Below, one piece after another: positions 15,583-45,276 of a stretch of DNA of 64,000 nt. Origin of the DNA: Puniceibacterium sediminis (GTDB taxonomy: Bacteria; Pseudomonadota; Alphaproteobacteria; Rhodobacterales; Rhodobacteraceae); the NCBI RefSeq assembly GCF_900188035.1, contig NZ_FZNN01000005.1, forward strand, positions 62,001-126,000, given 5' to 3'. Below the pieces are notes generated by a model. That model had not been told where the DNA came from. It saw only the letters and a program-made list of their open reading frames with translations, and searched no databases. The position numbers and the translations under genes were made by a program. The number at the start of each line of letters is the position of its first letter. Position 1 is the first letter of the stretch.

Positions 15583-16627
15583 CTAGGTGTTCAGTCCCGG
15601 CATCTGGTGGATCGGATTTGTGATGAAACGATCTGGCTCTGCAGTCCAGATCTTGCAGATGTATTCGTAAGGCGTGAGCCCGTTGAGGGTCTTGAGTCTG
15701 CGTGCGCAGTTGTAGGCTGCCAGGAAGTCGGTGAGGTGCGTGCGCAACTGGTCGTGGCTGTCGTAATGGTATCGTTTCACCGTCGCCTCCTTGATCGTTC
15801 GATTCACCCGCTCGACCTGACCATTCGTCCACGGATGGTTTGGCTTGGTCAGCCGATGCTCGATCCCATTTGCCTCGCAGATCATGTCGAAGCGCATCTG
15901 CCGCGAATATGCTGTGTTTCGGTTGCGAGGTTGCTCGGCGAACTGGATGCCGTTATCGGTCAGGATCGTGTGGATGCGATAGGGGACGGCCTTGAGCAGA
16001 TGTTCGAGGAACTCCCAGGCGGTCTTGCGATCCGCCTTTTCCACGAGTTGGGTGATCGCAAATTTGCTGGTCCGGTCAATGGCCACAAAGAGATAGAGCT
16101 TGCCCTCCACCGTCTGAACCTCGGCGATGTCGATGTGGAAGAAGCCCCCTCTCGGCAGATTTGCCTTGCAAATCGTCTGCCGGGCAGTGGATGGGATATC
16201 GCTTAAACTGCTGCCGCTTTGGCTTGTCACCCTCGACATCTGGCAAGCGCGAAATGCCATGTCGCTGAAGGCACCGATGTAGCGCCGACCGCGTCAGGTG
16301 CGGGGCAGACGGCTGAAGGGCATAGAGGCAATCATCCAGCGGCAGTAGCGTGTGCCGCCGGAATGCGACGATCATTGCCTCCTCCGCTTCGGTGAGAACG
16401 GTCGAACGCGGCTCTTTCGGTCCGGTCTTCAAGCCCTCTACCGTCGCACGCTTACGCCACTTCGCGACGGTTTTGGGATTGATGCCCAACTCCTTACTCA
16501 ACTGCGCGAGCGAAGCTTGCGATCGCTGTATTGCACAGCTCTGACGGCGTGCGTTGTCGTGGCGCTCCCGTGACGAACTTGTCTCACAATGCTTCCTTCC
16601 AGGCCTGAGAAAGGATCGCACCATCAA
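15583..16627 (-). pseudogene. IS481-family transposase, frame broken by a 43-bp hairpin insert
   Basis: Two minus-strand frames join into one IS481-type transposase. The N-terminal HTH part is ELGINPKTVAKWRKRATVEG...TRSALHRCLQRHGISRLP, up to KRYPI. The DDE part starts GFFHIDIAEVQTVEGKLYLF and runs through LTDNGIQF and NGQVERVNRTIKE. The break is not a point mutation: 43 bases at 16147-16189 lie exactly between KRYPI and GFFHIDIAEV, 12 bases before the first catalytic Asp codon. The three acidic catalytic residues are otherwise present. The element appears to have inserted into an IS5 element, whose N-terminal part continues at 16.63-17.03 kb. Confidence 0.82.
16147..16189 (-). repeat. Hairpin insert, copy A (43 bp)
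   Basis: On the minus strand it begins CACTGCCCGGCAG and ends CTGCCGAGAGGG. The stem is GGCAGA, a CGA bulge, then TTTGC paired with GCAAATCTGCC. It interrupts the IS481 transposase between the codons for KRYPI and GFFHID. 43 is not a multiple of three, so the frame shifts. Confidence 0.85.
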
Positions 16628-17033
16628 ACCATGCGATCAAACACTGTGCTGAAGTCGGGCACCGCCCAGTTCAAACCGATCGGACGCGACAGGCTCTCGA
16701 CGAACCCGGTCGTCTGCCGTAGCGCCATGCCGAACAGCACCTTCATCGTCAGGCAGGTCTGGATGGCGGTATCGCTGTAGGTTTGCTGTCGGCCGCGGTT
16801 GCCGGTCGGCGCAGAATCCCAGATCATCTCCGGGTCAAACCAACCTCTCGTGCCATTGCGGCGCAATGCACTGCCGGTCAGTGGATCGTCAGCGAGCCAC
16901 GGCGCTTGAGCGCTTCGTTATCGGCTGGCCAGTTCCGGGTCCGGTAGGTCGGGGCTGTCGGTCTGCTCATGTCGTCCAGCTACCAGGCTGGGTTCACGAC
17001 AGGAATCCCTCATCGGGTTTGTGCAACAAAGCC
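16628..17033 (-). pseudogene. IS5-family transposase N-terminal fragment
   Basis: The minus-strand reading begins at ATG 16970 (MSRPTAPTYRTRNWPADNEA), continues LKRRGSLTI, is interrupted by a 41-bp hairpin insert, and resumes WFDPEMIWDSAPTGNRGRQ to LRQTTGFVESLSRPIGLNW and VPDFSTV. This is the IS5-type N-terminal domain. The outer end has the IS5-type terminal sequence GGCTTTGTTGCACAAACCC (complement of 17015-17033). The rest of the transposase was lost where the IS481 element begins. Confidence 0.78.
16843..16883 (-). repeat. Hairpin insert, copy F (41 bp)
   Basis: On the minus strand it begins CACTGACCGGCAG and ends GGCACGAGAGGT. Its central arms TGCATTGCG and CGCAATGGCA pair. It splits the IS5 transposase between the codons for SLTI and WFDPEM, after an ATC codon as in copy A. 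41 bases shift the frame. Confidence 0.82.
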
Positions 17034-17141
17034 ATCGCACTGACAAATATTCCTGAACAAGGAACAGGCAATCAGCTATCCTGCGGTGGTAAACCCATGT
17101 AGAAATGAAACCAGAATGACAATCAGGGAAATTTTACGCAC

Positions 17142-17435
17142 GTGATTGATTTAAATGCCATGACAGCAGAGGATTTCGCCTTGATCGAGGGGATGGAATT
17201 CATGATTGTTTCCGTTGAGCCAGCAGTTCGTTTGAAGTTGATCGAAGTCAGGAAACTGGGTGCGGGTGAGCGTAAGGGCGGCGCTTTTTCCCTTCTTTGG
17301 CAGGGACCACCACATCCGGTTCTGCCACAAGCTACTTATCAGATGTCCCAGGACACGATTGGCAGCCATGATATTTTCCTGGTTCCCGTTTCATGGAAAG
17401 ATGCCGGAGTAGAATATGAGGCAATCTTCACCTAG
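17142..17435 (+). CDS. DUF6916-type small protein
   Basis: 97 residues (MIDLNAMTAEDFALIEGMEF ... YEAIFT). It resembles the DUF6916 family of small beta-rich proteins that usually sit in the same operon as tail-collar proteins and a GNAT. AGGG precedes the start at a fair distance. Here it is separated from those genes by the SLC13 gene and two broken IS elements. Its stop codon lies exactly at the edge of the IS3-type element on its right, so the native 3' end may have been altered. Function unknown. Confidence 0.7.
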   Translation: MIDLNAMTAEDFALIEGMEFMIVSVEPAVRLKLIEVRKLGAGERKGGAFSLLWQGPPHPVLPQATYQMSQDTIGSHDIFLVPVSWKDAGVEYEAIFT

Positions 17436-17908
17436 TGGACCTGTCGCGCTTTCGTGCCGCCCCAAGTGCTCATGTAAGCCACCTTTCGGTCGAAGGCGAC
17501 AGGGCTTTTCCAGCCCAATGCTGAGTGTCGGCGGCGCGGATTGTAGAAGCCGAGATAGCGGCCGATCTTGGCGCGAGCTTCCGAGATGCTGGCGTAGGCC
17601 CGCAGGTAGACGTCTTCGTATTTGCTGCTTCTCCAGAGGCGCTCCACGAAGACGTTGTCGCGCCACGCCCCTTTGCCATCCATGCTGATCTTGATCTCCC
17701 GGCTCGCCAGGACCTTGATGAAGTCGGTCGATGTGAACTGGCTACCCTGATCCGTGTTGAAGATCTCGGGAGCGCTGTGGCGCGCCAACGCCCCCTCCAC
17801 TGCTTCAATGCAAAAATCCGCTTCCAGCGTGATCGACACGCGCCAAGACAGCACCCGGCGGGTGAACCAGTCCAGCACAGCGGCGAGCTAGATGAACCCG
17901 CGCGCCAT

Positions 17909-17948
17909 CCACCGCCCGGCAGGGCATGCGTGCATACCCGAGAGGGAG
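17909..17948 (+). repeat. Hairpin insert, copy E (about 37 bp net)
   Basis: On the plus strand it begins CCACCGCCCGGCAG and ends CCCGAGAGGGAG, with a GGGCATGC / GCATACCC stem. In the IS3-type OrfB it lies just after the codons for DITYI, 12 bases beyond the first catalytic Asp codon. It is inverted relative to the gene. The 40 bases between conserved codons include one expected Pro codon. Confidence 0.8.
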
Positions 17949-18329
17949 AATGTAGGTGATGTCCATCGCCCACACCTGGTTGGGCCGGGTGATCGGCAGC
18001 TTCCTCAGCAGATAGGGGTAGATCTTGTGCCCTGGCACCGGTTTCGAGGTGTTGGGCTTGCGATAGAGCGCCTCAATCCCCATGCGCTTCATCAATGTGG
18101 CAACGTGCAGCCGCCCGACCTTGAAGCCTTCCTTAACCAGCAGGCCCTGCAGCATCCGGCTGCCCGCGAAGGGAAATTCCATGTGCAGTTTGTCGATCCG
18201 GTACATCAGCTTCAGATCGGAAGCCCGGATCGAGCGCGGCTAGTAGTAGACGCTGCCCCTGCTGATCCCCAGCACCTTGGCCTGACGGCCGACACTTAGC
18301 TTAGCTGTCCGGTCGATCATCTTTTTGCG

Positions 18330-18373
18330 CCCCCCTCTCGGCAGATTGCTGCGCAATCGCCTGCCGGGCAACG
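18330..18373 (-). repeat. Hairpin insert, copy B (about 43 bp)
   Basis: On the minus strand it begins CGTTGCCCGGCAG and ends CTGCCGAGAGGGG. The stem is GGCAG, a GCG bulge, then ATTGC paired with GCAATCTGCC. It lies between the OrfA sequence LLS and the KKMID segment of the IS3-type element. Its exact right edge is uncertain by one to three bases. Confidence 0.8.
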
Positions 18374-18671
18374 GGACAGCAGACCCGCCTTGCCGAGCGC
18401 GCCGGACAAAAAATCGTTCTCCAGCGTCAGCTCCCCGATCTTGGCATGCAGGGTCTTCACGTCGATCACCGGTTCCGGCTCGGCCTTCGGCCCATCACCA
18501 AACACCCCGGTCGCGCTCTGAAGAAGCAGATCACGCCATTGCTTGATCTGGTTAGGATGGAGGTCGAAATCCTGCGCCAACTAGATCAGCGTCTTCTCGC
18601 CCTTGATAGCGGCTACCGCCACTTTCGCCTTGAATGCCGGGCTGTGGTTCCGGCGCGGTCGTCTTGCCATG

Positions 18672-19564
18672 GTCTTCTCCTCGCTCGCAGCATCATGCTG
18701 CTGTTGCGCAGAAAATCCACCTATCCCGGCTGTTCAGATTTCCGAAACCACCTCTAAACGCCGCCTGAACGCGTCAGAAGGCTGAGTTCTGCGCTTTTCT
18801 GCCGTTCGTGACGAGCGCAGCGAACGGCAGCTCCCCGCCCCTTCCGTATGATGTTCAAAAGTCCCATGCAGATCATTCCGTTGCCTCCCAATGCGCGTCG
18901 CAGAGCGGAAGATCACAAGGGGCAAATCTCAATGAAAATCATGCGGCCACCCGGCTCACTTCTGGGTGGAAATCAACACCCCCTGCCTGCAGCTTCACGG
19001 AAATGGCACGATTCACCGACTGCGCGGCGTTTCGAGCGGCTTTTCCATGTCCACTCTCTCCGTCGGGAAGCATAGCGTTAGTCAAAAAATATGTAACAAA
19101 AAAGTACATATTTTTTATGTTATCGTGACAATTTGGTCAATTGTCTATTTTTGTCATTACAAATATTGACACATTTTGCAATTATGTGTACTTGAGTTCA
19201 CAACTTCGGCGGAGAGGATTTGGAGGACTGATGTGTTAAACCTTCTGGAGATTTACCACAGGTAACCGCAACGCAAGCGACGAGCATTTTGCCGCTTCGG
19301 CGGCGCACAGGCTTGAAAAGCTTGCATCAGATCCGAACGCTGTTCGGGACATCAATCTAACCGGTTCCCTCTGCTGTATGATTCGCTGCGGCAGCCTCAA
19401 AGCACACGCTGCATAGCGGAGGCTGACAGGCTGCCAGCCGATACGCGCATGCCGCTCAGGGAAATGCTTCAATCGCGTTTTGCTGACCGAGCTCTTGTGC
19501 GCCGGAAAGCACACTGGATTCACACCAACTGTGGCCGCAAAGAACCAAACAATAGGAAAAAGCT
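18672..19564. other. Gene-free stretch with inverted repeats upstream of the RraA-like gene
   Basis: I recognise no gene here. The stretch includes a perfect 10-base hairpin (CTGCCGTTCG, 18799-18808, with its complement at 18821-18830) in a GC-rich part. The part from 19080 to 19200 is strikingly AT-rich. The last 350 bases show no coding signal I can name. Confidence 0.5.
19084..19189 (+). promoter_or_regulatory. AT-rich control region with two inverted repeats before the RraA-like operon
   Basis: A perfect 12-base inverted repeat (AAAAAATATGTA at 19084-19095, complement at 19105-19116) is followed by a 6-base one (ACACAT 19169-19174, ATGTGT 19184-19189). The second overlaps a TTGACA hexamer at 19166-19171. 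Operator and promoter functions are inferred from position only. The regulator is perhaps the GntR gene at the end of the operon. Confidence 0.45.
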
Positions 19565-20290
19565 ATGAGCGATTACATCTTGTCCAGTGAGATCCGTGAC
19601 AAATTAAGGAAGGTATCCACGGCTTCCGTCGCGACGGCTCTGTTCAAGCGCGGTTTGCGCAATCAGTTTGTACAAGGTGTTGTGCCGATGGCGCGCAAGC
19701 CGGTGACCATGGTCGGCCAGGCCTTCACGCTGCGCTACATCCCTGCCCGGGAGGATCGCAATCCAATCACCATTTTCCGGGAACGCGACCACAAGCAACG
19801 CGTGGCGGTGGAAACCTGTCCCGAAGGTCATGTGCTGGTAATGGATGCCCGCAAGGACAGCCGCGCCGCCACGGCCGGATCGATCCTCGTCACCCGCCTT
19901 GCGAAACGCGGCGCCGCCGGCGTCGTGTCGGACGGTGGCGTGCGCGACGCGATCGGCATCGCTGCGCTTGACATGCCCGCCTATTTTGCCTGCTCCTCGG
20001 CACCGACAAACCTCACGTTGCATGAGGCCATTGACATAAACGTGCCGATTTCTTGCGGTGACGCGCCGGTCTTTCCCGGCGATGTCATGCTGGGGGACGG
20101 TGATGGCGTGATGGTAATCCCGGCCCACCTTGCCGATGAGATCGCAGAAGAATGCACGAACATGGAATCCTACGAAGATTTCGTGCTGGAGCAAGTGAAC
20201 GAGGGCGCTGGGATCATCGGCCTCTATCCGGCAACGGACGAAGAAAACCTCGTGAAATACGACGCATGGCGCGAACGGACAGGACGATAA
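19565..20290 (+). CDS. RraA-like / HMG-aldolase-family protein
   Basis: 241 residues. The RraA fold is recognised by GQAFTLRYIPA, VLVMDARKDSRAATAGSIL, the metal and substrate motif GAAGVVSDGGVRDAIGI, and GDVMLGDGDGVMVIP. Only some members of this family inhibit RNase E; many are class II aldolases or act on sugar-acid-derived 2-oxo acids. AGGAAAAAGCT precedes the ATG. The stop is one base from the start of an aldehyde dehydrogenase of the oxoglutarate-semialdehyde type, and a TTT importer follows. A catabolic step on a sugar acid is therefore more likely than RNase control (inference). Confidence 0.78.
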   Translation: MSDYILSSEIRDKLRKVSTASVATALFKRGLRNQFVQGVVPMARKPVTMVGQAFTLRYIPAREDRNPITIFRERDHKQRVAVETCPEGHVLVMDARKDSRAATAGSILVTRLAKRGAAGVVSDGGVRDAIGIAALDMPAYFACSSAPTNLTLHEAIDINVPISCGDAPVFPGDVMLGDGDGVMVIPAHLADEIAEECTNMESYEDFVLEQVNEGAGIIGLYPATDEENLVKYDAWRERTGR

Positions 20291-20291
20291 T

Positions 20292-21812
20292 ATGACCGAT
20301 ACCCTCCATGGAAATCACCTGATCGCAGGAAAACGGGTCAGCTCAGAGGCGCGGTTCTTATCCGCGCCCGCGACGGGCAGCGCCTTTGAGTTCTCGGCGG
20401 GGTCTCCCAAGCTTGTGGCCGAGGCTTGTGCTGCTGCCGAGGCCGCATTTGCGGGATTCGCCGCCACGTCCCGCGAGCAGCGCGCGAAGCTTTTGGAAAC
20501 CATAGCTGACGAGATCGACGCCCGTGGTGGCCAGATCACCGAGGTCGGAAGCGCGGAAACGGGGCTACCCGCAGCCCGCCTGCAGGGCGAGCGCGGCCGG
20601 ACCACCGGTCAGTTGCGTCTCTTTGCCTCGCACATTTTGGCCGGAGATTACCTTGATCGGCGACATGACGCGGCGCTGCCAGATCGTCAGCCGCTTCCCC
20701 GTCCTGATTTACGGATGATGCAGCGCCCCGTTGGCCCGGTGGCGGTCTTCGGTGCGTCCAATTTTCCGCTGGCGTTCTCGGTGGCCGGTGGCGACACCGC
20801 AGCGGCGCTTGCCGCGGGGTGTCCCGTCGTCGTCAAGGGGCACGGCGCGCATCCTGGCACGGGTGAGATCGTTGGTGACGCAATCGTCGCTGCACTCGAA
20901 AAACTTGGGATGGACGCGGGCATCTTCAGCCTCGTCCAGGGGGGCAGTCGCGCGGTGGGAGAAGCGCTTGTGACGGATCCGCGGATCAAGGCCGTCGGCT
21001 TCACCGGAAGCCTTGGCGGTGGGCGCGCGCTTTTTGATCTTTGCGCCTCGCGCCCCGAGCCGATCCCGTTCTTCGGGGAGCTCGGAAGCGTTAATCCCAT
21101 GTTCGTTCTGCCGCAAGCAGCCTCTGCCCGTGGCGCGGATATAGGCGCTGGCTGGGCCGGAAGTCTTACGATGGGTGTCGGACAGTTCTGCACCAACCCG
21201 GGCATTGCGATTGTGCTAGACGGGCCAGATGCGAATGCATTTGTGCAATCGGCGACAGATGGGCTCAGTTCCATTGAAGGCCAGACCATGCTGACAGATG
21301 GCATGGCCGCCGCCTACCGCAAAGGCGCCCGGCGGGTTTCCGAAGGCGCGGGCGTCAAGTCTCTCCTGAGCACATCCTGCGAGGGTCGGAATGCCGCGCC
21401 GTATCTGTTCGAGGTCTTGGCCAGCGACTGGATGGCCAATGAAGAGTTGTCCGAAGAAGTGTTCGGCCCTCTCGGGCTGGTGATCCGGGTGAAGGACGCA
21501 TCGCAGATGAAGGAAATAGCGCATAGCTTCAAAGGCCAATTGACCGCAACGCTTCAGATGGATGACGGCGATATCGACCTTGCGCGGGAGCTGCTGCCCG
21601 TGCTGGAGCGAATGGCTGGTCGCGTCATGGCCAATGGTTTCCCGACAGGGGTCGAGGTCTGCGACTCCATGGTTCACGGGGGCCCCTATCCGGCAAGCAC
21701 CAACTTTGGTGCCACATCCGTCGGCACACTTTCCATCCGACGCTTCCTGCGGCCGGTGTGTTACCAGAACCTCCCCGAAGCGCTTCTTCCGGCCGATCTC
21801 GTGTACGTTTAG
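20292..21812 (+). CDS. NADP-type aldehyde dehydrogenase (2-oxoglutarate semialdehyde dehydrogenase-like)
   Basis: 506 residues: PVAVFGASNFPLAFSVAGGD (cofactor-binding region), AVGFTGSLGGG, the general-base Glu in FFGELGSVNP and the catalytic Cys in GVGQFCTNPG. Length and the ELGSVNP / GQFCTNPG pair match the enzymes that oxidise 2,5-dioxopentanoate to 2-oxoglutarate, the last step of non-phosphorylating pentose, aldarate and hydroxyproline pathways. It follows the RraA-like gene by one base and precedes the TTT importer. Substrate assignment is family inference. Confidence 0.85.
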   Translation: MTDTLHGNHLIAGKRVSSEARFLSAPATGSAFEFSAGSPKLVAEACAAAEAAFAGFAATSREQRAKLLETIADEIDARGGQITEVGSAETGLPAARLQGERGRTTGQLRLFASHILAGDYLDRRHDAALPDRQPLPRPDLRMMQRPVGPVAVFGASNFPLAFSVAGGDTAAALAAGCPVVVKGHGAHPGTGEIVGDAIVAALEKLGMDAGIFSLVQGGSRAVGEALVTDPRIKAVGFTGSLGGGRALFDLCASRPEPIPFFGELGSVNPMFVLPQAASARGADIGAGWAGSLTMGVGQFCTNPGIAIVLDGPDANAFVQSATDGLSSIEGQTMLTDGMAAAYRKGARRVSEGAGVKSLLSTSCEGRNAAPYLFEVLASDWMANEELSEEVFGPLGLVIRVKDASQMKEIAHSFKGQLTATLQMDDGDIDLARELLPVLERMAGRVMANGFPTGVEVCDSMVHGGPYPASTNFGATSVGTLSIRRFLRPVCYQNLPEALLPADLVYV

Positions 21813-22445
21813 CTTCGGTCACATAAATCCACTGTACCGCCACTGTATTCTTTTGCGGTGGCGGAACCACAAGTCAGCTGCGGGCCGGTGGCTACGCCTA
21901 CCCCCATCAGACAACCTCGCCCCTGCAATTGCCAAGGCCGCTTTGCACGTTTGGCATGCGGCATGCGGCGGGGCTATGCGGATCACAATATGTTAAAAGT
22001 TGTTCTCAAAAAGAACATACAACGCACAAAAATCACACATTTTCTCCAAAATTGGTAATATTTCGCATTGATTTGTAAATATTATACAAGTATCGTGATT
22101 CAAGTCTCCCGATCCACACCGTCTGCTGCGCTGACGGTTTCAGGGGGCCGAAGCTTGGTAATATATGGGAGGATGTTATCAGTCGCATTTGGAGCACAGT
22201 CGCGTCGTGCTTCAATGGGTGCAAAGTTTCGATCAGGCGATGGCGCGCCCCTTGCAGCCAGATCGCGCCCAGTCATTTTCAAAAGCGCGCAAGCAAAGTC
22301 CTGAACCTCATTCAGGCTTGGCTTTCTCTCAAAAAGACAAACTTGAAGTTGCTCTGTCGAAGCGCCCTGCTTCGTCGGACCAGTCGGTTCATTCAACTTG
22401 CCAGACTTATCTGGATCACGACATCTATTAAGGAGGAACAGGTCT
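21813..22445 (+). promoter_or_regulatory. Long leader of tctC with inverted repeats
   Basis: No gene is recognised. AT-rich DNA holds TGTTCT (22001-22006) paired with AGAACA (22012-22017), and TAATATTT (22056-22063) paired with AAATATTA (22077-22084). Both resemble operator half-sites. A strong AAGGAGG at 22431-22437 sets the tctC start. Confidence 0.45.
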
Positions 22446-23411
22446 ATGTTTTCTAAAAGCCTGAAAGGCAAAATCGCGTTGGCACTTGGTGCCTGCATCA
22501 TTGGTACCTCGGTTGCTGCGGCGGATTTCCCGACCCGCGATATTCGTCTAATCGTTCCGTGGCCGGCGGGCGGCGGTGCGGACGCCATTTCGCGCAAGAT
22601 CAGCAACATTGCCGAAGATGAACTGCCAAAATCTGTCTATGTGGAAAATATCGCGGGTGCCGTGACGGCGACCGGTCTGATCCAGATGACCAATTCGCGC
22701 CCGGACGGGCACACCGTCGGCGTGCTGACCTACGACAGTGTCATCACCCTGCCGCGTGGCCAGATGGTGCCCGGCTATTCGCTGGACAACATGACACCGA
22801 TCGCCCGCATCACCACCGAAGCCGATGCGATCGTCGTCTCCAAGCACTCCGGAATCAACACCTTCGAAGAACTGGTGGAAGCGGCGAAGGCCAGTCCCGG
22901 CACAGTGCGCGTCGGCGTGGCTCCAAAGGGGTCGGGTCCGTATCTGTCGGTCATCCAGCTTGAAAAACTGTTGGACGTCGATTTCAACGTGATCACCTAT
23001 GCCGGATCTTCAAGCGCAGAAGCAGAAGCACTCCTGTCTGGCGAGCTTGATGCAGCAATCTCGAGCCTGGGCGATTTCAGCGGCATCATTGCGTCGGGCG
23101 ATGTCAAAGGTGTGGTTGAACTGTCCTCTGTGCAAAACCTGACCTACACGGACGTGCCCACGATCAGTTCAAAGGGCTACGATCTGCAAACGGGCAGTTT
23201 CATCATTCTTTCGGCTCCGAAAGACACTCCGCCAGAGGCCGTCGCCACGATCGAGACAGCGTTCAAAACGGCATACGATAGTGCAGAGTTCCAGGACTGG
23301 CTGAAGCAGGTTGGCGTCACCCCAGACTGGCTCGGCTCGGACGAGGTCAAAGGCTGGATGGACGAGCTCCAGAACAAGACGTTCAAGCTCATGGACGAAC
23401 TGAATCTGTAA
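22446..23411 (+). CDS. tctC: TTT transporter substrate-binding protein
   Basis: 321 residues from ATG 22446, chosen because AAGGAGG precedes it and a signal peptide (MFSKSLKGKIALALGACIIG to SVAAA) begins there. The mature protein shows the Bug/TctC features FPTRDIRLIVPWPAGGGADA and a late DWLGSDEVKGWMDE segment. It is periplasmic and delivers a carboxylate to the TctAB membrane pair encoded just downstream. The next gene starts after ~210 bases that contain no other gene. Upstream enzymes suggest a sugar acid as ligand (inference). Confidence 0.9.
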   Translation: MFSKSLKGKIALALGACIIGTSVAAADFPTRDIRLIVPWPAGGGADAISRKISNIAEDELPKSVYVENIAGAVTATGLIQMTNSRPDGHTVGVLTYDSVITLPRGQMVPGYSLDNMTPIARITTEADAIVVSKHSGINTFEELVEAAKASPGTVRVGVAPKGSGPYLSVIQLEKLLDVDFNVITYAGSSSAEAEALLSGELDAAISSLGDFSGIIASGDVKGVVELSSVQNLTYTDVPTISSKGYDLQTGSFIILSAPKDTPPEAVATIETAFKTAYDSAEFQDWLKQVGVTPDWLGSDEVKGWMDELQNKTFKLMDELNL

Positions 23412-23624
23412 CCACCAAGCATGATGTCTCCGGTCCTGTATCGGAGACATCGCCCTCCGGGGGCGCTTTGTTTGGGGTGGTGATGCAAGCGCTATCATCG
23501 ACCGGCAAGCTGCCCCATACCAACGCAGCAGCTCGCACGAGATGTTCCACCGTGCCTCTTGACGCTGAGTCCAAAACAGCAGCTTGCCGCTACCCCCACC
23601 AACAACCCAGCCCGGGAGAAGACG

Positions 23625-24074
23625 ATGCTCTTAAACAGGCCTCTGGTATTTCTATATGTCATTCTTGCAGTGTCTGTCGGATATCTCATCTCGGCACTGA
23701 ATTTAGGCGCCCCGATATCCGAGAGCGGATTGACACCTTCGTTCTTTCCCATCCTGGTGGGGGGCGCTGCGATCTTCTTTTGCAGCATTCTCATTCTTCA
23801 GAAGCTGCGTGCCGAACCCGAAAAGTTCCAGTCTGATGTGCCGCGGAATTACACCCACATCTGGGTCGTGGTCGCTATTTTCTTTTACATTCTCGGCTTT
23901 AAACCAATGGGATACTTCATCTCGTCGGGCCTCTTCGTTTTCGCGCTTATCGTACTTTTTTCTTCTTTCGAGAAGCTTCTGCAGAAGGCCGCCATATCGG
24001 CGGTAATTGTCGTGATTGCCTATGTCATGTTTCAGCAATTGTTCGGGGTCCGACTCCCGACGCTTTGGGGTTAA
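23625..24074 (+). CDS. tctB: TTT transporter small membrane subunit
   Basis: 149 residues from ATG 23625 (MLLNRPLVFLYVILAVSVGY), preceded by GGGAGAAG. Four hydrophobic helices are arranged as in TctB. An upstream in-frame ATG at 23559 would add a hydrophilic tail with no ribosome site. It is encoded 3 bases ahead of tctA and acts with it in the inner membrane. Confidence 0.88.
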   Translation: MLLNRPLVFLYVILAVSVGYLISALNLGAPISESGLTPSFFPILVGGAAIFFCSILILQKLRAEPEKFQSDVPRNYTHIWVVVAIFFYILGFKPMGYFISSGLFVFALIVLFSSFEKLLQKAAISAVIVVIAYVMFQQLFGVRLPTLWG

Positions 24075-24077
24075 GTC

Positions 24078-25918: not shown

Positions 25919-25928
25919 CAGTGTACAC
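25919..25928 (+). promoter_or_regulatory. Candidate operator before the GntR gene
   Basis: The perfect palindrome AGTGTACACT lies about 30 bases before the TTG start. Its GT-N-AC core fits FCD-type GntR sites, so autoregulation is plausible. Confidence 0.4.
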
Positions 25929-25959
25929 TCCAGTCCAATCCAAAACAAAGGAGACCACG

Positions 25960-36163: not shown

Positions 36164-36268
36164 GGCGCCTCTCCCTAAAAATGGCCGCGTCAGCCTGCGT
36201 GGTAATCCCTGGTCGCTCTGCAACCTGTGGGATGGCAGGCCGGAACGCGATTCGCTCCTCCAGCATGA

Positions 36269-36290
36269 CTTGTATACTAGTTTACAATCT
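36269..36290 (+). promoter_or_regulatory. Shared operator motif, site 1 (divergent promoter region)
   Basis: CTTGTATACTAGTTTACAAT lies between the ATPase and dehydratase genes. It matches the palindrome at 38551-38568 in front of dctP at nearly all positions. A second partial half, TACTAGTATTA, follows at 36294. The GntR protein encoded at 37.7 kb is the likely binder (inference). Confidence 0.6.
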
Positions 36291-36352
36291 TGGCTACTAG
36301 TATTATATTTAAACGCGAGAGACTCAAAATCCCCATCCCCAGAGGAGAGATG

Positions 36353-37615: not shown

Positions 37616-37641
37616 TCTGTACGCACATCAACATATCGGAT

Positions 37642-37682
37642 TGCTGGATAGTGGCGGCACGATTGGCTAAGACAATCCAGCA
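37642..37682 (+). repeat. Inverted repeat before the GntR gene
   Basis: TGCTGGAT (37642-37649) and ATCCAGCA (37675-37682) form an 8-base stem around a 25-base loop, 15 bases before the GntR start. There is no T-run. It may be an operator or an mRNA structure. Confidence 0.35.
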
Positions 37683-37696
37683 TTGGAGAGTGACAT

Positions 37697-38389
37697 ATGG
37701 CGGATACGACACAGACTTGGGACCGGCGGACCGGCGTGGATCTCGTTGCCAATCATCTATATGATGAAATCACATCGCTGCGCCTGCTGCCCGGGACGAA
37801 GATTTCCGAAACGGATATCGCGGCCCGATTTGGCGTCTCACGCCAGCCTGTTCGGGATGCGTTTGTGCGGCTCGCCAATCTGGATCTGCTGCTGATCCGC
37901 CCCCAAAAGGCGACTGAGGTTAGGCGGTTTTCTGTCCGCGCCATCGAAAAAGCCCGGTTCGTGCGCGCCTCGGTCGAATCCGAAGTGTTGCGGCGCGCGG
38001 CGCGACTCTGCGACAAAGACGGCGCGAAACTGCTTGAGGACAGCCTGCAACGTCAGCGAAACCTGCTGGCGGATCAGGACTATGCTGCGTTCGGCACGCT
38101 GGATTACGAATTTCACAAACTGCTGTGCGACATCGCCGACGTCGAATATGCTTTTGATGTGATTTCCGCAGAAAAGGCCAAGGTCGACAGGCTTTGCATG
38201 CTAGGCCTGTCGAAAGAGGATCGTATGCCCCAGCTCATTGAAGATCATGAACAGATTGCCGCGATGGTCATCGCAGGCAAACCCGAAGAGGCTGTGGAAG
38301 CGGGCATGCTGCACCTCTCTCGTCTCGACTCCACCATTGAATCGATCAAAACCCGCAACGCCGCTTATTTCGAAACAGACGACGACTGA
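37697..38389 (+). CDS. GntR-family regulator, FCD subfamily, of the uronate genes
   Basis: 230 residues: HTH ~residues 25-85 (ARFGVSRQPVRDAFVRLAN) and an FCD domain with SVESEVLRRAAR, DYEFHKLLCDIA and EDHEQIAAMVI metal-site segments. GGAGAG precedes the ATG. It stands between the dehydratase and the TRAP genes, each preceded by the same CTTGTATAC-type palindrome. That makes it the natural regulator of the dehydratase, ABC and TRAP operons (inference). Confidence 0.87.
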   Translation: MADTTQTWDRRTGVDLVANHLYDEITSLRLLPGTKISETDIAARFGVSRQPVRDAFVRLANLDLLLIRPQKATEVRRFSVRAIEKARFVRASVESEVLRRAARLCDKDGAKLLEDSLQRQRNLLADQDYAAFGTLDYEFHKLLCDIADVEYAFDVISAEKAKVDRLCMLGLSKEDRMPQLIEDHEQIAAMVIAGKPEEAVEAGMLHLSRLDSTIESIKTRNAAYFETDDD

Positions 38390-38550
38390 AATCCCACCAC
38401 CGGGCATTTCCAGAACTGTTGATCGGTTCATAGACTGCGCGCAATGCATTGCGCCGCAGCTAGGTCCCCTGTGCGACAGCCAATTTCCCACTCGATACGC
38501 GACCTGAAGCAAAAACTCTAAACAGCTGAACAATTTTCTTCCAAAAAATT

Positions 38551-38568
38551 CTTATACTAGTATACAAG
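38551..38568 (+). promoter_or_regulatory. Shared operator motif, site 2 (before dctP)
   Basis: CTTATACTAGTATACAAG is an almost perfect palindrome (core TATACTAGTATA) 65 bases before the dctP ribosome site. Its complement matches site 1 at 36269. Confidence 0.62.
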
Positions 38569-38632
38569 ATTCATGACGCGAGGCGACTCCCGGGTCGCAA
38601 GCGTTACAAAAAGAGGGATTAGGGAGGAAACC

Positions 38633-39628
38633 ATGACCTTTTGTCTGCCACTGAAATGCATCGCCACAGCTGTCACTATCAGCACGGCGCTGACGGCTTT
38701 TGCCGGTGTCGCATCGGCCACCGAACTGCGCGGCTGGAACATCCACGTCGACGATTACCCCGTCTCCATCGCGATGGAGAGTTTTGCCGCCGAAGTCGCG
38801 GAAAAAACCGGCGGTGAGGTCACCGCAAAGATCTATCACAACGGCGTTCTGGGCGATCAGCCGGATGCAATCGAGCAGATCCGCCTGGGCGTGATCGATT
38901 TCGGTGAATTCAGCCTTGGACCCATGGGCCAGTCGGTTCCCGAAGCCAACGTCGTGTCCCTGCCCTTCATCTTTCCGAGCATCCCCAAGATGTACGAACT
39001 AATGGACGGCGCGGTGGGCGACGCAATCGGCGAAGGTCTCAAGGCCAAGGGCATCGTGCCGCTGGGCTGGTATGACGCCGGCGCACGATCATTCTACAAT
39101 TCGGTTCACCCAATCAATACCCCCACCGATGTCGAGGGCCTGAAAATCCGCGTCATGTCCAACGATCTGTTCGTCAAGATGGTCGAATCCATGGATGGCA
39201 ACGCTACACCGATGGCTTTTGGCGAAGTCTATCAGTCGATCAAGACCGGTGTCGTGGACGGAGCCGAAAACAACCCGCCGTCCTATGAATCCACCAATCA
39301 CTTTGAAGTGGCCAAGTACTACTCGATGACCGAGCATCTCATCATCCCCGAGTGCCTGTGCATGAGCCTCAAGTCTTGGGAAAAGCTGACAGCCGAGCAG
39401 CAGTCCGTCGTGATGGAGGCAGGCCGCACCAGTGCCAACCTTCAGCGCGAACTCTGGGCCAAGCGTGAGGCCGCCAGCCTGGAAAAGGTCAAGGCAGGCG
39501 GAACCGAGGTGAACATGATCGCCGACAAGGCGCCGTTCCAGACGGCAATGGCCCCGGTCTACGATTCGTTTCTCGCGGCCAATCCGGGCCTGACCGATCT
39601 GGTCAACATGATCCGCGACGCGAAATAA
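38633..39628 (+). CDS. dctP: TRAP transporter solute-binding protein
   Basis: 331 residues from ATG 38633, which follows AGGGAGGAAACC; the earlier in-frame ATG is rejected. A signal peptide runs to GVASATE. DctP features are GEVTAKIYHNGVLGDQPDAI, LKIRVMSNDLFVKMVESM (ligand-carboxylate Arg) and GVVDGAENNPPSYES. It is periplasmic and binds a sugar acid or uronate. It is the first gene of a dctPQM operon under the shared palindromic operator. Confidence 0.92.
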   Translation: MTFCLPLKCIATAVTISTALTAFAGVASATELRGWNIHVDDYPVSIAMESFAAEVAEKTGGEVTAKIYHNGVLGDQPDAIEQIRLGVIDFGEFSLGPMGQSVPEANVVSLPFIFPSIPKMYELMDGAVGDAIGEGLKAKGIVPLGWYDAGARSFYNSVHPINTPTDVEGLKIRVMSNDLFVKMVESMDGNATPMAFGEVYQSIKTGVVDGAENNPPSYESTNHFEVAKYYSMTEHLIIPECLCMSLKSWEKLTAEQQSVVMEAGRTSANLQRELWAKREAASLEKVKAGGTEVNMIADKAPFQTAMAPVYDSFLAANPGLTDLVNMIRDAK

Positions 39629-39707
39629 TCTGCACCGCTTGTCATGTCGGCCCACCCCTTTTCGGGGTGGGCCGTTAGCCAAGATCACGGCATTCCCGGA
39701 GCCCCAG

Positions 39708-40238
39708 ATGTCGCCCCAGTCCCCATTTATCCAAACCGTCTCGCACCTGCTCGACCTGATCCGCGGCCTGTGCATGGCTGTCGCTGCCACCGCGCTCGTC
39801 GTGCTGATCGCAACCTTCGGTTGGCTGGTCTTCGGGCGCTATGTGCTGAACGTCACCCCGACCTGGGTGGAACAGCTTGCCCTGATCCTAGTCTGCTACA
39901 TCGCCTTTCTGGGTGCCGCCGCCGGGGTTCAGGAAGACACCCACATCGGCGTCACCCTGTTTCGCGACATGCTGCCGCCCGGCGCACGCAAGGTACTGAT
40001 GATCGCCATCGACTTTGCCCTTGCGGCCTTTGGCGCGGTCATGCTGATCGCGGGCGTCACGCTGATGCGGTTCGGCTGGGACACCATGTTGCCCATGCTG
40101 AACATCCCCGAAAGTTTTCGCACGCTGGCCATCACGTCCTGTGGCGCGCTTGTCCTGCTGTTCGCCGGCCTGCGCGGCCTGCTGCGTATCCTGTCCTTCG
40201 GATCCTGGGATCCCGAAGCCCTTTTCAAGGAATTCTAA
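39708..40238 (+). CDS. dctQ: TRAP transporter small permease
   Basis: 176 residues from ATG 39708 (MSPQSPFIQ). Four membrane helices and the DctQ motif TWVEQLALILVCYIAFLGAA are visible. An earlier in-frame ATG at 39639 lies too close to dctP and is less likely. It is followed after 2 bases by dctM. Confidence 0.88.
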   Translation: MSPQSPFIQTVSHLLDLIRGLCMAVAATALVVLIATFGWLVFGRYVLNVTPTWVEQLALILVCYIAFLGAAAGVQEDTHIGVTLFRDMLPPGARKVLMIAIDFALAAFGAVMLIAGVTLMRFGWDTMLPMLNIPESFRTLAITSCGALVLLFAGLRGLLRILSFGSWDPEALFKEF

Positions 40239-40240
40239 CC

Positions 40241-41521
40241 GTGGGTCTTGCTATTCTGCTGTGCGTCTTTGGTGCCGGAGTCGTGATCGGCGCGCCTGTG
40301 GCCTTTGCCATGGGCATCGCCGCCGCCGCCGCCTTCTGGTACGAAGGTTTTCCGATGCTGATCACCTTTCAGCGCGCCACCGCCGGCGTCACGGTGTTTT
40401 CACTGCTCGCCATCCCCTTCTTTGTCTTCGCGGGCGAAATCATGCTGCACGGCGGCATCGCCAAGCGCTTGGTGAAACTCGCCTCGGCCCTTGTCGGGCA
40501 CTTTCGCGGCGGACTTGCGATGGTCAACATCTTCTCGTCCATGCTCTTCGGCGGCATCTCGGGGTCAGCCGTGGCCGACATTTCGGCGCTCGGCTCGTTG
40601 CTGGTGCCGGTGATGAAGGAACGCGGGTATCGCGCCGATTTCGCGGTGAATGTCACCGTGACATCCTCGATCGCAGGTATCGTCATCCCTCCCAGCCACA
40701 ACATGATCATCTTTGCCGTGGCGGCGGGCGGCGGCATATCCGTTTCCAAGCTGTTCCTGGCGGGTGTGGTCCCGGGCATCCTGATGTGCGTCTGCCTAGC
40801 CATTGCGGCCTACATCCTGTCAATCAGACACAACTACCCGTCCGAGGCTTTCCCCGGCTGGCGCGCCGTCGGCACCACGGCTGCCGACGCCCTGCCCGGA
40901 TTCTTTACCGCTGTCATCATCGTCGGCGGCACCCTGTCGGGCGTGTTCACTGTAACCGAATCCGGCGCTTTCGGCGCGATTTACGCCGTCCTGCTGACGA
41001 CATTCTATTACCGCAGTCTGACGTTGAAATCCTTTATCACAGCCTTGACCGGGGCAGTTCGCACCACGGCGATGGTGATGATCCTGATCGCCTTTGCCAG
41101 TTCCTTTGCCTACCTTCTCGCTCTCTATCAGGTTCCGATGAAGCTGAGCGCGCTTCTGGTGTCCATTTCGGACAACCCCATCATTATCCTGCTGATGATC
41201 AACGTCATCTTGCTGCTGCTGGGCATGATCATGGACATGGCGGCACTGATCCTGATCTGCACGCCGATCTTCCTACCCATCGCCAAGGGGCTGGGCATGG
41301 ACCCGACGCAGTTCGGGATCATGATGCTGATCAACCTCGGGCTGGGCCTCTGCACGCCCCCCGTGGGCACCTGCCTGTTCGTCGGCTGCGCCGTGGGCAA
41401 GATCAAGCTGGAAGAGGCGCTCAGAACGATCTGGCCCTTCTACCTCGCCATCTTTGTCGCGCTGATGCTGGTGACCTATGTGCCGGGGGTATCGCTCTGG
41501 TTACCCTCCGTCCTTGAATGA
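40241..41521 (+). CDS. dctM: TRAP transporter large permease
   Basis: 426 residues from GTG 40241, 2 bases after the dctQ stop; the open frame extends further upstream, but only as overlap with dctQ. About 12 helices. DctM motifs are IPFFVFAGEIMLHGGIAKRL, FGGISGSAVADISALGSLLV, VIPPSHNMIIFA and GLCTPPVGTCLFVGC. It is a sodium-coupled importer of a sugar acid, by family knowledge. Confidence 0.92.
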   Translation: MGLAILLCVFGAGVVIGAPVAFAMGIAAAAAFWYEGFPMLITFQRATAGVTVFSLLAIPFFVFAGEIMLHGGIAKRLVKLASALVGHFRGGLAMVNIFSSMLFGGISGSAVADISALGSLLVPVMKERGYRADFAVNVTVTSSIAGIVIPPSHNMIIFAVAAGGGISVSKLFLAGVVPGILMCVCLAIAAYILSIRHNYPSEAFPGWRAVGTTAADALPGFFTAVIIVGGTLSGVFTVTESGAFGAIYAVLLTTFYYRSLTLKSFITALTGAVRTTAMVMILIAFASSFAYLLALYQVPMKLSALLVSISDNPIIILLMINVILLLLGMIMDMAALILICTPIFLPIAKGLGMDPTQFGIMMLINLGLGLCTPPVGTCLFVGCAVGKIKLEEALRTIWPFYLAIFVALMLVTYVPGVSLWLPSVLE

Positions 41522-41559
41522 CTTGTTGAGCGAAACCGCAGAACCAAAGGAACTGCATC

Positions 41560-42927
41560 TTGACCACCGCTGAAACGGGCGCTGCAACGGACGGCGCACT
41601 GTCGCCCACACGGGCCATCTTCGACATGGCCTGGCCGATGACCCTGCGCGCCATGATGCTGCACGGCGTCGTCGTGATCGACGCCTTCCTGATCGCCGGT
41701 CTGGGCGAAGAGGCACTGGCCGCCTTGGGTCTGGCCAGCGCCGTCGGCGGGCTTTTGCTGGGCATCCTGCTGGCCTTTTCCAACGCCACGCAGATCCTCG
41801 TGGCGCAGGGGTTCGGCACCACACAGCCCGTCGCACTCAAGACCGGGTTCTGGTGTGGGCTGATCGTCAACGTTTCTGCGGCACTGATCGGGCTGATCAT
41901 CACCCTGTTCGCCGCCGGGCCGATCATCGACGGCGGCGCGCACAGTCTGTGGATCGCCAGCGAGGCCAAGCAGTACCTCGCCGTTTTCACCATCGTCGTG
42001 CTGGCCGAAGCCGCGGGGCAAAGCCTGTCGGCGCATTTCAACGGCTGCGGCGAAACCCGGCGTCCGTTCTACAGCTACCTCTACGCGGTGCCCATCAACA
42101 TCGTGGTCAGCCTTGTGCTTATCTACGGGTTATTCGGTTTTCCCGCCTTTGGTGTCACTGGGGCCGCACTTGGCAGCGCGGTCTCTGCGGTGGTGCGCGC
42201 GTGGTACCTGGCCCACCACCTGCTGCGCGAAAACGGCCCCTCCCTGCGCGCACCGGGATGGCTGCACGGCAGCCTCTGGCGCGCACTGCGCCGCCACCTT
42301 GCCTTTTCTCTGCCGGTCGCGGCGACCTTCATCAGCGCGAACCTCGCCGGCAGCGTCTGCACCCTGATCTATGCCCGGCTTGGCGTGAACGAATTCGCCG
42401 CGATGACGCTGATCCAGCCGTGGATCATGGTAGTCGGCACGGTCGGCATGTGCTGGGCACAGGCCACCGGCATCCTCGTGGCACAGTTCCTGGGGCGTGG
42501 CGCACCGGAACAAGTTCTGGACAATTTCCTGCGTCAGGCGTGGCGGGGGGCCTTCGTCACGTCATTCGTGGTGTCTGCCATCTATGTCACGGTCTGCCTG
42601 TCCTCCGGCTGGATCTATAGCGATCTTCAGCCCGAAACCCGCGCCGCGCTGCTGATCTTTCTACCGACGCTGCTGTTCCTGCCCTTCCCAAAGAATTCAA
42701 ACGCGATCTGTGGCAACACCCTGCGCGCCGGCGGCGAGACTGTCTATGTCATGCACATCTTTGTCTGGTCGCAATGGCTGTTCCGCGTGCCCGCCACCGC
42801 TGCGCTGGTTTATATGGGCGCGCCGGTCGGCTGGGTGTTTTCGCTGTTCCTGCTGGAGGAACTGGTAAAATTCCCGCCCTTCCACCTGCGCATGTTCAAG
42901 GGCCACTGGAAAAAGGCAATGGTCTAG
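41560..42927 (+). CDS. MATE-family efflux transporter
   Basis: 455 residues from TTG 41560, with AAAGGA upstream. Twelve predicted helices in two MatE domains (DMAWPMTLRAMMLHGVVVID near the start; AFSLPVAATFISANLAGSVC in the second half). MATE proteins export cationic drugs or metabolites in exchange for sodium or protons. It lies 38 bases after dctM, and its stop overlaps the convergent TetR gene by 4 bases. Confidence 0.88.
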   Translation: MTTAETGAATDGALSPTRAIFDMAWPMTLRAMMLHGVVVIDAFLIAGLGEEALAALGLASAVGGLLLGILLAFSNATQILVAQGFGTTQPVALKTGFWCGLIVNVSAALIGLIITLFAAGPIIDGGAHSLWIASEAKQYLAVFTIVVLAEAAGQSLSAHFNGCGETRRPFYSYLYAVPINIVVSLVLIYGLFGFPAFGVTGAALGSAVSAVVRAWYLAHHLLRENGPSLRAPGWLHGSLWRALRRHLAFSLPVAATFISANLAGSVCTLIYARLGVNEFAAMTLIQPWIMVVGTVGMCWAQATGILVAQFLGRGAPEQVLDNFLRQAWRGAFVTSFVVSAIYVTVCLSSGWIYSDLQPETRAALLIFLPTLLFLPFPKNSNAICGNTLRAGGETVYVMHIFVWSQWLFRVPATAALVYMGAPVGWVFSLFLLEELVKFPPFHLRMFKGHWKKAMV

Positions 42928-43523
42928 GCCGCGTGCCCCAACCGGGCGAATTCATCCGCCAGATCCTGCACCAGATGCTGCATCGCCGCCGGATCCGTCT
43001 CGCGCTGTGCCTGAATCTTGAGCCCAAAGACATAGGTTTGCATCCGCCGCGCCAGTCGGTCAGTATCCACATCCATCGGCAACTCCCCAGCCAAACGCGC
43101 CTTTTCGAATCCCTCCGCCAGCAGTCTTCGGACGCATTCCAGATGGCCCAGCACCACGTCTCGTAACTCGGGCTGATCCTCGTGAATTTCGAGCAGCGAC
43201 TTCACCAGCATGCAGGCGGTCGAAGGCTTCTCGCACCGCTCCAGCCCGCCCAGCGACAACAGGTACCGCTGCAGTGCCCCCAAAGGAGAGGCCGACTCCT
43301 CGATCTGTCGCGACAGGTCCGCCTCCATCCGCTTTGCGTAGAGCTCCAGCGTGGCGCGGAACAAACCCTCCTTGTTGTGAAAGGCGGCATAGATTGATCC
43401 CGGGCGCATCTTCAACGCCAGCTCCAGATCGCGCATCGAGGTGGTGTGATACCCTTTGGCCCAGAACAGGGACATCGCGGTATTCAGGGCCACATCACGG
43501 TCATATGCAGGTTCTCTGGGCAT
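42924..43523 (-). CDS. TetR/AcrR-family regulator
   Basis: 199 residues: HTH (~residues 10-55; YHTTSMRDLELALKMRPGSI) and an all-helical ligand domain with a Cys (CEKPSTACMLVKSLLE) of the kind seen in NemR-like electrophile sensors. It is divergent from the CMD-family gene; the perfect inverted repeat at 43583-43625 lies between them and is its likely operator. The convergent MATE gene may also be a target. Confidence 0.87.
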   Translation of the reverse strand: MPREPAYDRDVALNTAMSLFWAKGYHTTSMRDLELALKMRPGSIYAAFHNKEGLFRATLELYAKRMEADLSRQIEESASPLGALQRYLLSLGGLERCEKPSTACMLVKSLLEIHEDQPELRDVVLGHLECVRRLLAEGFEKARLAGELPMDVDTDRLARRMQTYVFGLKIQAQRETDPAAMQHLVQDLADEFARLGHAA

Positions 43524-43582
43524 TGGTGATCAATACACCTTTCAGCCTTCGTACAAAAGGCCGTCCGGCGCGCCTCACCCAA

Positions 43583-43625
43583 TTTTGAACGATCACTCAA
43601 ATATTACTTGAGTGATCGTTCAAAA
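43583..43625 (+). promoter_or_regulatory. Perfect 18-bp inverted repeat, TetR operator candidate
   Basis: TTTTGAACGATCACTCAA (43583-43600) and its exact complement (43608-43625) flank a 7-base spacer in the divergent TetR / CMD promoter region. TGA-CGATCA-type half-sites are usual for TetR proteins. Confidence 0.8.
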
Positions 43626-43680
43626 ACCTCCATCTGGGTTTAGAACCCGCCGTCCAGAACGGCAAAACAAGGAGAGACCC

Positions 43681-44244
43681 ATGTCCACACTCGCCCGTCT
43701 TGATGAAACGAACGCGCCAGCAGCCTCCGTGCCCCTGATCGAAAAATCGAAAAAGGCATTTGGTCGACTGCCCGGCCTGCACAGCGTTCTGTCCGCCTCC
43801 CCCGCCGCCTTCGAAGGCTATCAGGTCCTGCACCGGCTCTTTGCTGAGCAGACCGCCTTTGACGCTGATGAAAAAACCGTGGTCTGGCAGACGATCAACG
43901 TCGAACATCAATGCCACTATTGCGTCCCCGCCCACACCGGAATCGCCAAGATGATGGGAGTCAGCGACGACATCTCGAACGCACTACGCGACGAAACGCC
44001 CCTGCCCACCACCAGGCTCGAGTCGCTGCGCAGCTTCACACTCGCCATGGTCCGCGACCGTGGCAGCGTCAGCGACGACGCGTTGCAGACCTTTTACGAT
44101 GCGGGCTACGAACAGCGCCACGTTCTCGAAGTCGTGCTCGGCCTCGCGCAAAAGGTGATGAGCAACTACATCAATCACATCGCCGACACCCCGGTGGATC
44201 AGGTCATGCAGAAATTCGCGTGGACTCCGAAATCGGGTCGTTAA
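43681..44244 (+). CDS. Carboxymuconolactone decarboxylase / AhpD-like protein
   Basis: 187 residues from ATG 43681 (AAGGAGAG upstream). The AhpD-like core is QTINVEHQCHYCVPAHTGIA, with the CxxC redox pair and downstream His, followed by a second helical half. Such proteins act as peroxidases or isomerase-like enzymes in stress defence. Divergent TetR control with a Cys-bearing sensor fits a response to electrophiles or oxidants (inference). Confidence 0.85.
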   Translation: MSTLARLDETNAPAASVPLIEKSKKAFGRLPGLHSVLSASPAAFEGYQVLHRLFAEQTAFDADEKTVVWQTINVEHQCHYCVPAHTGIAKMMGVSDDISNALRDETPLPTTRLESLRSFTLAMVRDRGSVSDDALQTFYDAGYEQRHVLEVVLGLAQKVMSNYINHIADTPVDQVMQKFAWTPKSGR

Positions 44245-44384
44245 AATCACGTGATCTGCTACGATTCTTAAATATCTTCGGACGTGTCATTACCGGCGCG
44301 TCCGAGGGTTGATTTGATTCCGCGATAGGACCTCCAGTCCACCACATCCTCGGACACTATCCGTTTTTCCCCAAGAGGCATGGC

Positions 44385-44492
44385 ATGTCAACGGCGCGTG
44401 AGTTCATGTTTGATCTGGCCTCGCGTCTCGCCACACGTATCCAGCTTACAACAGACGGTCACGGCGCATACCTCAAGGCCGTTACAGACGCA
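44385..44492 (+). pseudogene. IS1-type transposase fragment
   Basis: The plus-strand frame MSTAREFMFDLASRLATRIQ and LTTDGHGAYLKAVTDA resembles the DDE segment of IS1-type transposases (RLANRVQLTSDGHKAYLEAV). It is cut off exactly where the IS3 element begins at 44493. Confidence 0.6.
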
Positions 44493-44564
44493 TGGTAATC
44501 CTCCCCGAAAGTAAGGGGCTGCATAAGTAGAATTTTCTCGGCAAGATGCATGAGGAGATTCTGA

Positions 44565-44828
44565 ATGAAGACAAGCAGATACACTGAGGCGCAGATCCTT
44601 TCGATCCTGCGCCAGGGCGAAGGCGGAGTGCCGGTGGCAGAGCTTTGCCGTGAGCATGGCATGAGCAATGCGTCGTTCTACAAGTGGCGGGCGAAGTATG
44701 GCGGCATGGACGCGTCCATGATCAGCCAGATGAAGGCCATGGAAGATGAGAACCGGCGCCTGAAGCGGATGTATGCAGATCTGAGCATGCAGGCTGATCT
44801 GTTGAAGGAAGCCCTTGGAAAAAAGTAA
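44565..44828 (+). CDS. IS3-family OrfA
   Basis: 87 residues: an HTH_Tnp_1 domain (YTEAQILSILRQGEGGVPVA, then LCREHGMSNASFYKWRAKYG) and a C-terminal leucine-zipper-like coiled coil (MEDENRRLKRMYADLSMQAD). It ends in the usual LLKEALGKK before OrfB. It appears intact; it is the DNA-binding part of the transposase. AGGAG lies upstream of the ATG. Confidence 0.88.
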   Translation: MKTSRYTEAQILSILRQGEGGVPVAELCREHGMSNASFYKWRAKYGGMDASMISQMKAMEDENRRLKRMYADLSMQADLLKEALGKK

Positions 44829-45115
44829 TTGGGCCGTCTCACCGCCGGGAGATGGCCGAGAATGCGGTGGCGCGCCGTGGGGTCAGCATTGCGCTGGCTT
44901 GCCGAGCCTTCGGGGTCAGCGAGACTTGTTATCGCTACAGCCCCCTGCTGAGCGACGAGAATGAGCAGATAGCCGATCTGCTTGTTGGGTTAACCGAGGC
45001 CCGGAAGACTTGGGGATTTAGGCTGTGCTTCCTGCATTTGCGCAACGTCAAAGGCCATCCCTGGAATCACAAAAGGGTTTACCGGATCTACTGCGAACTT
45101 GAGCTGAACTTGCGC

Positions 45116-45159
45116 CCCTCTCGGGACATTGGCTTCGCGCAATGCCCTGCCGGGTGACA
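45116..45159 (-). repeat. Hairpin insert, copy C (44 bp)
   Basis: On the minus strand it begins TGTCACCCGGCAG and ends TGTCCCGAGAGGG, with CATTG/CAATG pairing. It splits OrfB between the codons for ELNLR and IKPRK. It is inverted relative to the gene. Confidence 0.82.
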
Positions 45160-45239
45160 ATCAAACCCCGGAAACGGTTGAAACGCGACAAACCCGATGC
45201 GCTTGCGGTGCCAGAGGCACCGAACGTGACCTGGTCGAT

Positions 45240-45276
45240 CATTGCCCGGCAGGCGATGCAAAGCATCGCTGAGAGG
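45240..45276 (+). repeat. Hairpin insert, copy D (37 bp)
   Basis: On the plus strand it begins CATTGCCCGGCAG and ends CGCTGAGAGG. The perfect stem is GCGATGC with GCATCGC around AAA. It lies inside the Met codon directly before the first catalytic Asp codon (WSM-DFM). It is the shortest copy. Confidence 0.84.

Follow-up and report, generated by a model that had tools for sequence, protein, structure and literature searches.

A 41-nt hairpin in transposase genes of Rhodobacterales, probably a scarless and non-autonomous mobile palindrome

The window analyzed here, 64 kb of the Puniceibacterium sediminis genome (contig NZ_FZNN01000005.1, positions 62,001 to 126,000), carries six copies of a short hairpin, all of them within transposase genes. 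We consider it probable that this hairpin is a non-autonomous mobile palindrome that is moved in trans and inserts without scars, almost always into transposase genes. An earlier reading of the window from its letters alone (the sequence-only reading) had proposed a tiny mobile palindrome on the strength of the six copies, and the wider material supports the proposal: our pooled set comprises 302 distinct insertion sites, the hosts belong to more than ten families of insertion sequences (IS), and an empty homologous counterpart was found for 77 sites among the loci read. These pairs mostly join exactly, without duplication or loss of a base. Throughout, L-numbers denote loci read and G-numbers denote genomes.

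The hairpin unit and its insertion sites

The unit is 41 nt long at 158 of the 302 sites and consists, in this order, of CAYTG, CCC, GGCAG, an inner stem with a loop of 2-4 nt, YGAGA and GGG. CAYTG forms a 5' tail, GGCAG and YGAGA a conserved inner collar, and CCC and GGG a closing stem that is flush with the 3' end; the sequence of the inner stem-loop varies freely, and the two ends of the unit do not form an inverted repeat. Covariation is seen in the outer CCC/GGG pairs and in the inner stem, with changes on both sides in 10 of 12 pairs. The covariation score of 0.272 compares with 0.081 after shuffling and was reached by none of 500 shuffles, and sliding the pairing partners abolishes the signal. 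Rare TGACC variants terminate in GAGAGGT, so that the terminal pair is swapped from C-G to A-T. Two long forms of 68 nt (L192:945-1019 and L200:1349-1423) have an extra hairpin in the apical loop and are perhaps nearer to the ancestral form. Such apical-loop extensions, up to 68 nt, are the only increase in size that we saw: among the loci read there were no orphan left ends and no larger cargo element with the same ends, and in nine loci read for an exact left end, the right end followed within about 41 nt in all but one chance match.

The comparison of filled and empty copies, which the sequence-only reading had recommended, fixes the ends of the unit and shows that a target-site duplication is absent from the filled/empty pairs. 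Exact joins are also found when the IS5 of Dinoroseobacter shibae and the IS21 of G309 are set against empty relatives. At 120 sites examined for a target, the unit lies 3' of (C/T)C(A/G)TC^G, with C at position -1 in 91%, T at -2 in 64% and G at +1 in 69% of cases, and without information beyond five bases upstream of the insertion point. The unit is used in both orientations, 51 times with the host gene and 72 times against it. Sites are independent of each other, some carry different stem types in different hosts, and in L126 one unit is nested within another.

We inspected 161 sites singly, and by our tally roughly 93% or more lie within transposase genes; at 123 of the 161, a protein relative that crosses the junction is present at another locus. 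In a random draw of 20 sites from GTDB loci, inspection placed 18 in transposases. The sequence-only reading had allowed that the copies might prove to be mainly intergenic and of an ordinary repetitive extragenic palindrome (REP) type; they are instead mostly in transposase genes. Hosts named by NCBIfam or Pfam, for which the peptides were mostly short so that many were left unnamed, belong to IS3, IS5, IS481, IS1182, IS21 (IstA and IstB), IS982, IS4, IS630, IS91 and IS66, to which inspection by eye together with Pfam added IS110, IS256, IS1595, IS6/IS240 and IS30. The only clear host outside mobile elements is a RelE-type toxin gene (L120:1501-1548). The other exceptions are few and lie in unnamed or non-coding stretches (L104/L316, L308 and one in L126). 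L104:1501 and L316:5761 hold one unit at the matching site of an unnamed conserved stretch that is 74% identical over 565 bp, and the two units of L308 (5449-5500 and 6440-6491), in what appear to be non-coding repeats, have a longer flank in common, GGATGCGCGGGCAGCCTGCGGCTGCTATT, which is possibly a different carrier sequence. Single genes often hold several units: one IS3 in the window's genome has seven, one gene of Phaeobacter porticola P97 five and a gene of G018 four. As the lengths of the window copies had suggested, the unit breaks the reading frame at most places: at 260 of the 302 sites its length is not a multiple of three, leaving just 42 where it is.

The hairpin is abundant in the window's genome and spread across its order. 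A core pattern, TGCCCGGCAG-N(4-30)-GAGAGG, has 25 exact matches in the 4.64-Mb genome and none in the reversed control, and a covariance model (CM) trained on seven copies from the same genome gives 50 matches at E <= 0.01. All six species of the genus are positive, with a maximum of 69 per genome. In the family, 137 of 397 genomes (one per genus) have a CM match at E <= 1e-6; in the rest of the class just four of about 377 genomes do. Among the matches listed in a scan of the GTDB collection, all but one are from Rhodobacterales or unnamed Alphaproteobacteria; a match in an Ignavibacteriales bin (L273) has no stem and is due to chance. Carriers include Puniceibacterium antarcticum from the window's genus, the laboratory model Dinoroseobacter shibae DFL 12, P. 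porticola P97, Roseobacter litoralis, Sulfitobacter pontiacus, Leisingera aquimarina and Jannaschia species, and three contigs of a virus collection also match. Weak CM matches in L063, L071, L072:617, L080:4090, L077:3082 and L132:2234 were judged false and excluded. A search of Rfam 15 with positions 15500-19000 of the window returned no family match, only two hits at chance level.

The six copies in the window

Direct reading and the CM agree on all six inserts, which the CM recovers at E-values from 9e-19 to 1e-6; it finds no convincing seventh copy in the 64 kb. The exact core pattern matches three times in the window and not once in 100 shuffles of it. The ends first proposed were correct within three bases, and copies 3 and 4 were moved by 1-3 bases with the help of empty relatives. 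The assignment of the hosts to one IS481, one IS5 and two different IS3 elements holds as well.

Copy 1 (16147..16189, minus strand, 43 nt, 50.5 bits) lies in an IS481-type transposase gene on the minus strand; its site is empty in the homologue L187 and occupied by a different hairpin in L174. Copy 2 (16843..16883, minus strand, 41 nt, 43.5 bits), in an IS5-type transposase gene on the minus strand, is of the variant that runs from TGACC to GAGAGGT. The homologous site is empty in L022, and the same rare variant recurs at the identical site in L077 and L194. Copies 3 (17910..17946, plus strand, 37 nt, 29.1 bits) and 4 (18333..18373, minus strand, 41 nt, 71.7 bits) share an IS3-type transposase gene on the minus strand, whose approximate limits, 17435..18680, come from direct reading against L128. 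Uninterrupted relatives do not already contain the inserted segments: both are missing from an empty IS3 of Paracoccus liaowanqingii (NZ_CP040765), with a clean gap at copy 3. Hairpins aside, this host IS3 is already a pseudogene: TAG interrupts its frame at three positions that encode Y, R and E in the relative. Recoding of these codons was considered and rejected in view of the residues that they replace.

The second, different IS3-type gene, on the plus strand at approximately 44700..45700 (direct reading; homologs L072, L129, L130 and L131), holds copy 5 (45116..45159, minus strand, 44 nt, 31.9 bits) and copy 6 (45240..45276, plus strand, 37 nt, 37.7 bits). The site of copy 5 is empty in L150 and filled in L072 and L078, and that of copy 6 is empty in L150 and in L130, which matches the L072 copy of that IS at about 98% identity. 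Elsewhere in the window, one 22-mer occurs at 9003, 9309 and 9615; the 306-bp spacing points to a tandem array with a period of about 306 bp at 9003-9636, probably in a gene for a repetitive protein.

Movement, spread and rival explanations

The lack of a target duplication and of terminal inverted repeats, together with the single conserved hairpin, leads us to suppose that a candidate trans-acting enzyme would move the unit, probably as folded single-stranded DNA, and would integrate it scarlessly 3' of its target motif in either orientation to the host gene. Spread may then occur in three ways, by rare jumps onto new sites, by recurrent, homing-like reinvasion of one site in related IS, and by hitch-hiking in IS copies that transpose. 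The usual effect would be a broken host transposase, and the filled IS would itself become a non-autonomous element that is moved in trans. Several filled copies are indeed broken and have multiplied nonetheless. The IS5 host of D. shibae, with an in-frame TGA, is present in three near-identical copies; in P. porticola a filled IS3 is found at four places, and at two of these it has lost 123 bp; and an IS21 of G309 that retains only part of istA is found twice. That broken copies still multiply fits mobilization in trans. The seven-unit IS3 of the window's genome is also broken by additional frameshifts.

Reinvasion is suggested by the recurrence of identical rare variants at one site in diverged hosts. 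When hosts with flanks 60-93% alike are filled at the same site, their hairpins are near-identical (distance <=2) in 30% of cases, against 2% for random pairs. L329 of Jannaschia and L227 of G347 share a hairpin at 41 of 41 positions, with hosts at a synonymous divergence (dS) of 1.8 and a ratio of nonsynonymous to synonymous divergence (dN/dS) of 0.11; L072 and L088 share one at 39 of 39 positions at a host dS of 1.5. In the first case the filled copies do not form one clade, as L227 clusters with empty IS copies (84% identity). Repeated reinvasion by one variant, or repeated exact loss, explains this pattern; plain inheritance fails to do so. Gene conversion was rejected in favor of reinvasion or repeated loss, because the 60-nt flanks of L227 and L212 show no greater similarity than the remainder and L227 stands among empty copies. 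A short tandem repeat (translated FRASVLPC) adjoins a unit within an IS5 of Jannaschia near L329:483-530.

The obvious enzymes do not account for the movement. The Y1 transposase of the IS200 elements and of the REP-associated tyrosine transposases (RAYT; PF01797) is present in 30 of 397 genomes and absent from G000, G018, G080 and G268, and there is none in the window's genome with its approximately 50 copies. Among genomes with Y1, 18 of 30 carry the hairpin, compared with 137 of 397 overall; we put this modest enrichment down to IS load. The IS91-type Y2 transposase (PF04986) is present in 44 of 397 genomes, with G018, G080, G268, G327 and G347 not among them, and a reverse transcriptase (PF00078) is absent from G268, G327, G347, G255 and G352. 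As each is missing from copy-rich genomes, all three were rejected as the required enzyme. A reverse-transcriptase domain (RVT_1, E 7e-29), the only one in the window's genome, lies at 63698-64000 on the minus strand of the window and runs past its end.

Several observations weigh against the mobile palindrome as described. Searches with the Y1, Y2 and reverse-transcriptase profiles and for elements with the same ends found no mobilizing enzyme and no autonomous partner. Identical rare hairpins occur in hosts with a synonymous divergence of 0.5 to more than 2 and a dN/dS of 0.1-0.2, a possible sign that they have long been retained in functional genes. In G018, a complete genome of two contigs, a four-unit IS3 is present in six full copies that are 99% identical, and exact excision of the four units leaves OrfA and OrfB intact in all six, which would be odd if the units simply killed the gene; no hairpin-free copy of it was found, and the next relative is 32% identical. 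These IS3 copies also speak for units that resemble introns or bypassed segments, being removed from RNA, skipped by the ribosome or precisely excised from DNA, so that the genes still work and the insertions are tolerated and hence kept for long times. The IS30 of G018 and the IstB of G309 are likewise intact once their units are removed, an IS5 in L188 is intact across three units, and at shared sites the hairpins are better conserved than their flanks. We nevertheless judge this explanation unlikely. Units occur in both orientations, and to our knowledge neither an RNA-level nor a ribosomal mechanism tolerates this. The take-off triplet matches the landing triplet in 1 of 123 cases, so that translational bypass by matching codons was rejected; 22 of 67 in-frame hosts contain additional stop codons close by; a number of the multiplied hosts are broken; and close pairs that share a unit have a relaxed dN/dS, mostly about 0.5-0.9 with one at 0.25. 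We give a similarly low probability to a dedicated machinery that directs the palindromes into the transposase genes of unrelated IS families and is coupled to their precise removal from DNA or RNA, which would make the unit a reversible off-switch of transposons or a homing parasite of transposases that spares function. The intact G018 IS3, the exact restoration of the frame and the identical same-site hairpins in diverged hosts are compatible with it.

The abundance in transposase genes might also reflect survival, if units inserted at random and persisted, amplified by the IS that bear them, only in dead IS copies. Many hosts are pseudogenes, and IS copies do multiply and are transferred. 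However, as a haven intergenic DNA should exceed IS DNA, yet it holds very few sites; a gene that is otherwise about 90-98% like its empty relative can hold up to seven units, which speaks for a high local rate, and a rough, non-exact estimate favors a strong IS excess after correction for length. Random insertion followed by survival therefore seems doubtful to us. Since intergenic DNA should tolerate inserts and yet is nearly free of the hairpin, tolerance alone does not suffice, and we lean towards an IS-linked targeting step, or another IS-linked process, behind the near-exclusive use of transposase genes. The sequence-only reading had left it at a palindrome preferring, or tolerated only in, such genes; the confinement stands, and of the two, preference seems the likelier. 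Least probable are REP-like sequences of the RAYT or IS200 kind that were caught in IS by chance. Their size, palindromic form and insertion 3' of a short motif without target duplication are as in the hairpin, but the rarity of Y1, its absence from the window's genome, the location in transposase genes and the lack of a GTAG or CGTC end tag largely refute this reading.

Comparison with known elements

Miniature inverted-repeat transposable elements (MITEs) are defined by a target duplication and by terminal inverted repeats in common with an IS; the hairpin has neither. It is, as they are, short, non-coding and non-autonomous (PMC10969869). REPs and bacterial interspersed mosaic elements (BIMEs) associated with RAYT are palindromes of 20-40 bp that reach high copy numbers and are regarded as non-autonomous elements mobilized in trans; REPs lie mostly between genes and are tagged with GTAG or CGTC (PMC3733652), whereas the hairpin has the ends CAYTG and GGG, hosts that are transposase genes, and no Y1 in many of its carriers. 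With the single-strand transposition of IS200/IS605 it shares a hairpin element and scarless insertion 3' of a short motif; it differs in the lack of Y1 in many carriers, in having a single hairpin and in that no autonomous element with the same ends was found. The sequence-only reading had likened it to the Rickettsia palindromic elements. The likeness holds in concept, as both are palindromes inside genes of an alphaproteobacterium, but it does not extend to insertion in frame: the Rickettsia elements are in frame, within genes that likely encode functional proteins (PMC3733652), and the hairpin mostly breaks the frame, in transposases. The byp elements of yeast mitochondria are likewise mobile hairpins that break into coding sequences, and their length is similar (PMC5009743). 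Unlike them, the hairpin is used in both orientations and is without the matching triplets needed for ribosome bypass.

In the openly accessible literature we found no description of palindromic inserts in transposases of this bacterial group, and as far as is known a habitat in transposase genes is unprecedented among short mobile palindromes. The hairpin would be a mobile element living in other mobile elements, order-wide, frame-breaking and scarless. This raises the questions of what moves a 41-nt unit, of how transposase genes that belong to unrelated families are located, and of whether the nesting restrains IS or serves survival within them. Many genes annotated in Rhodobacterales as “frameshifted transposases” would then also be hosts interrupted by the hairpin and not simply products of decay.

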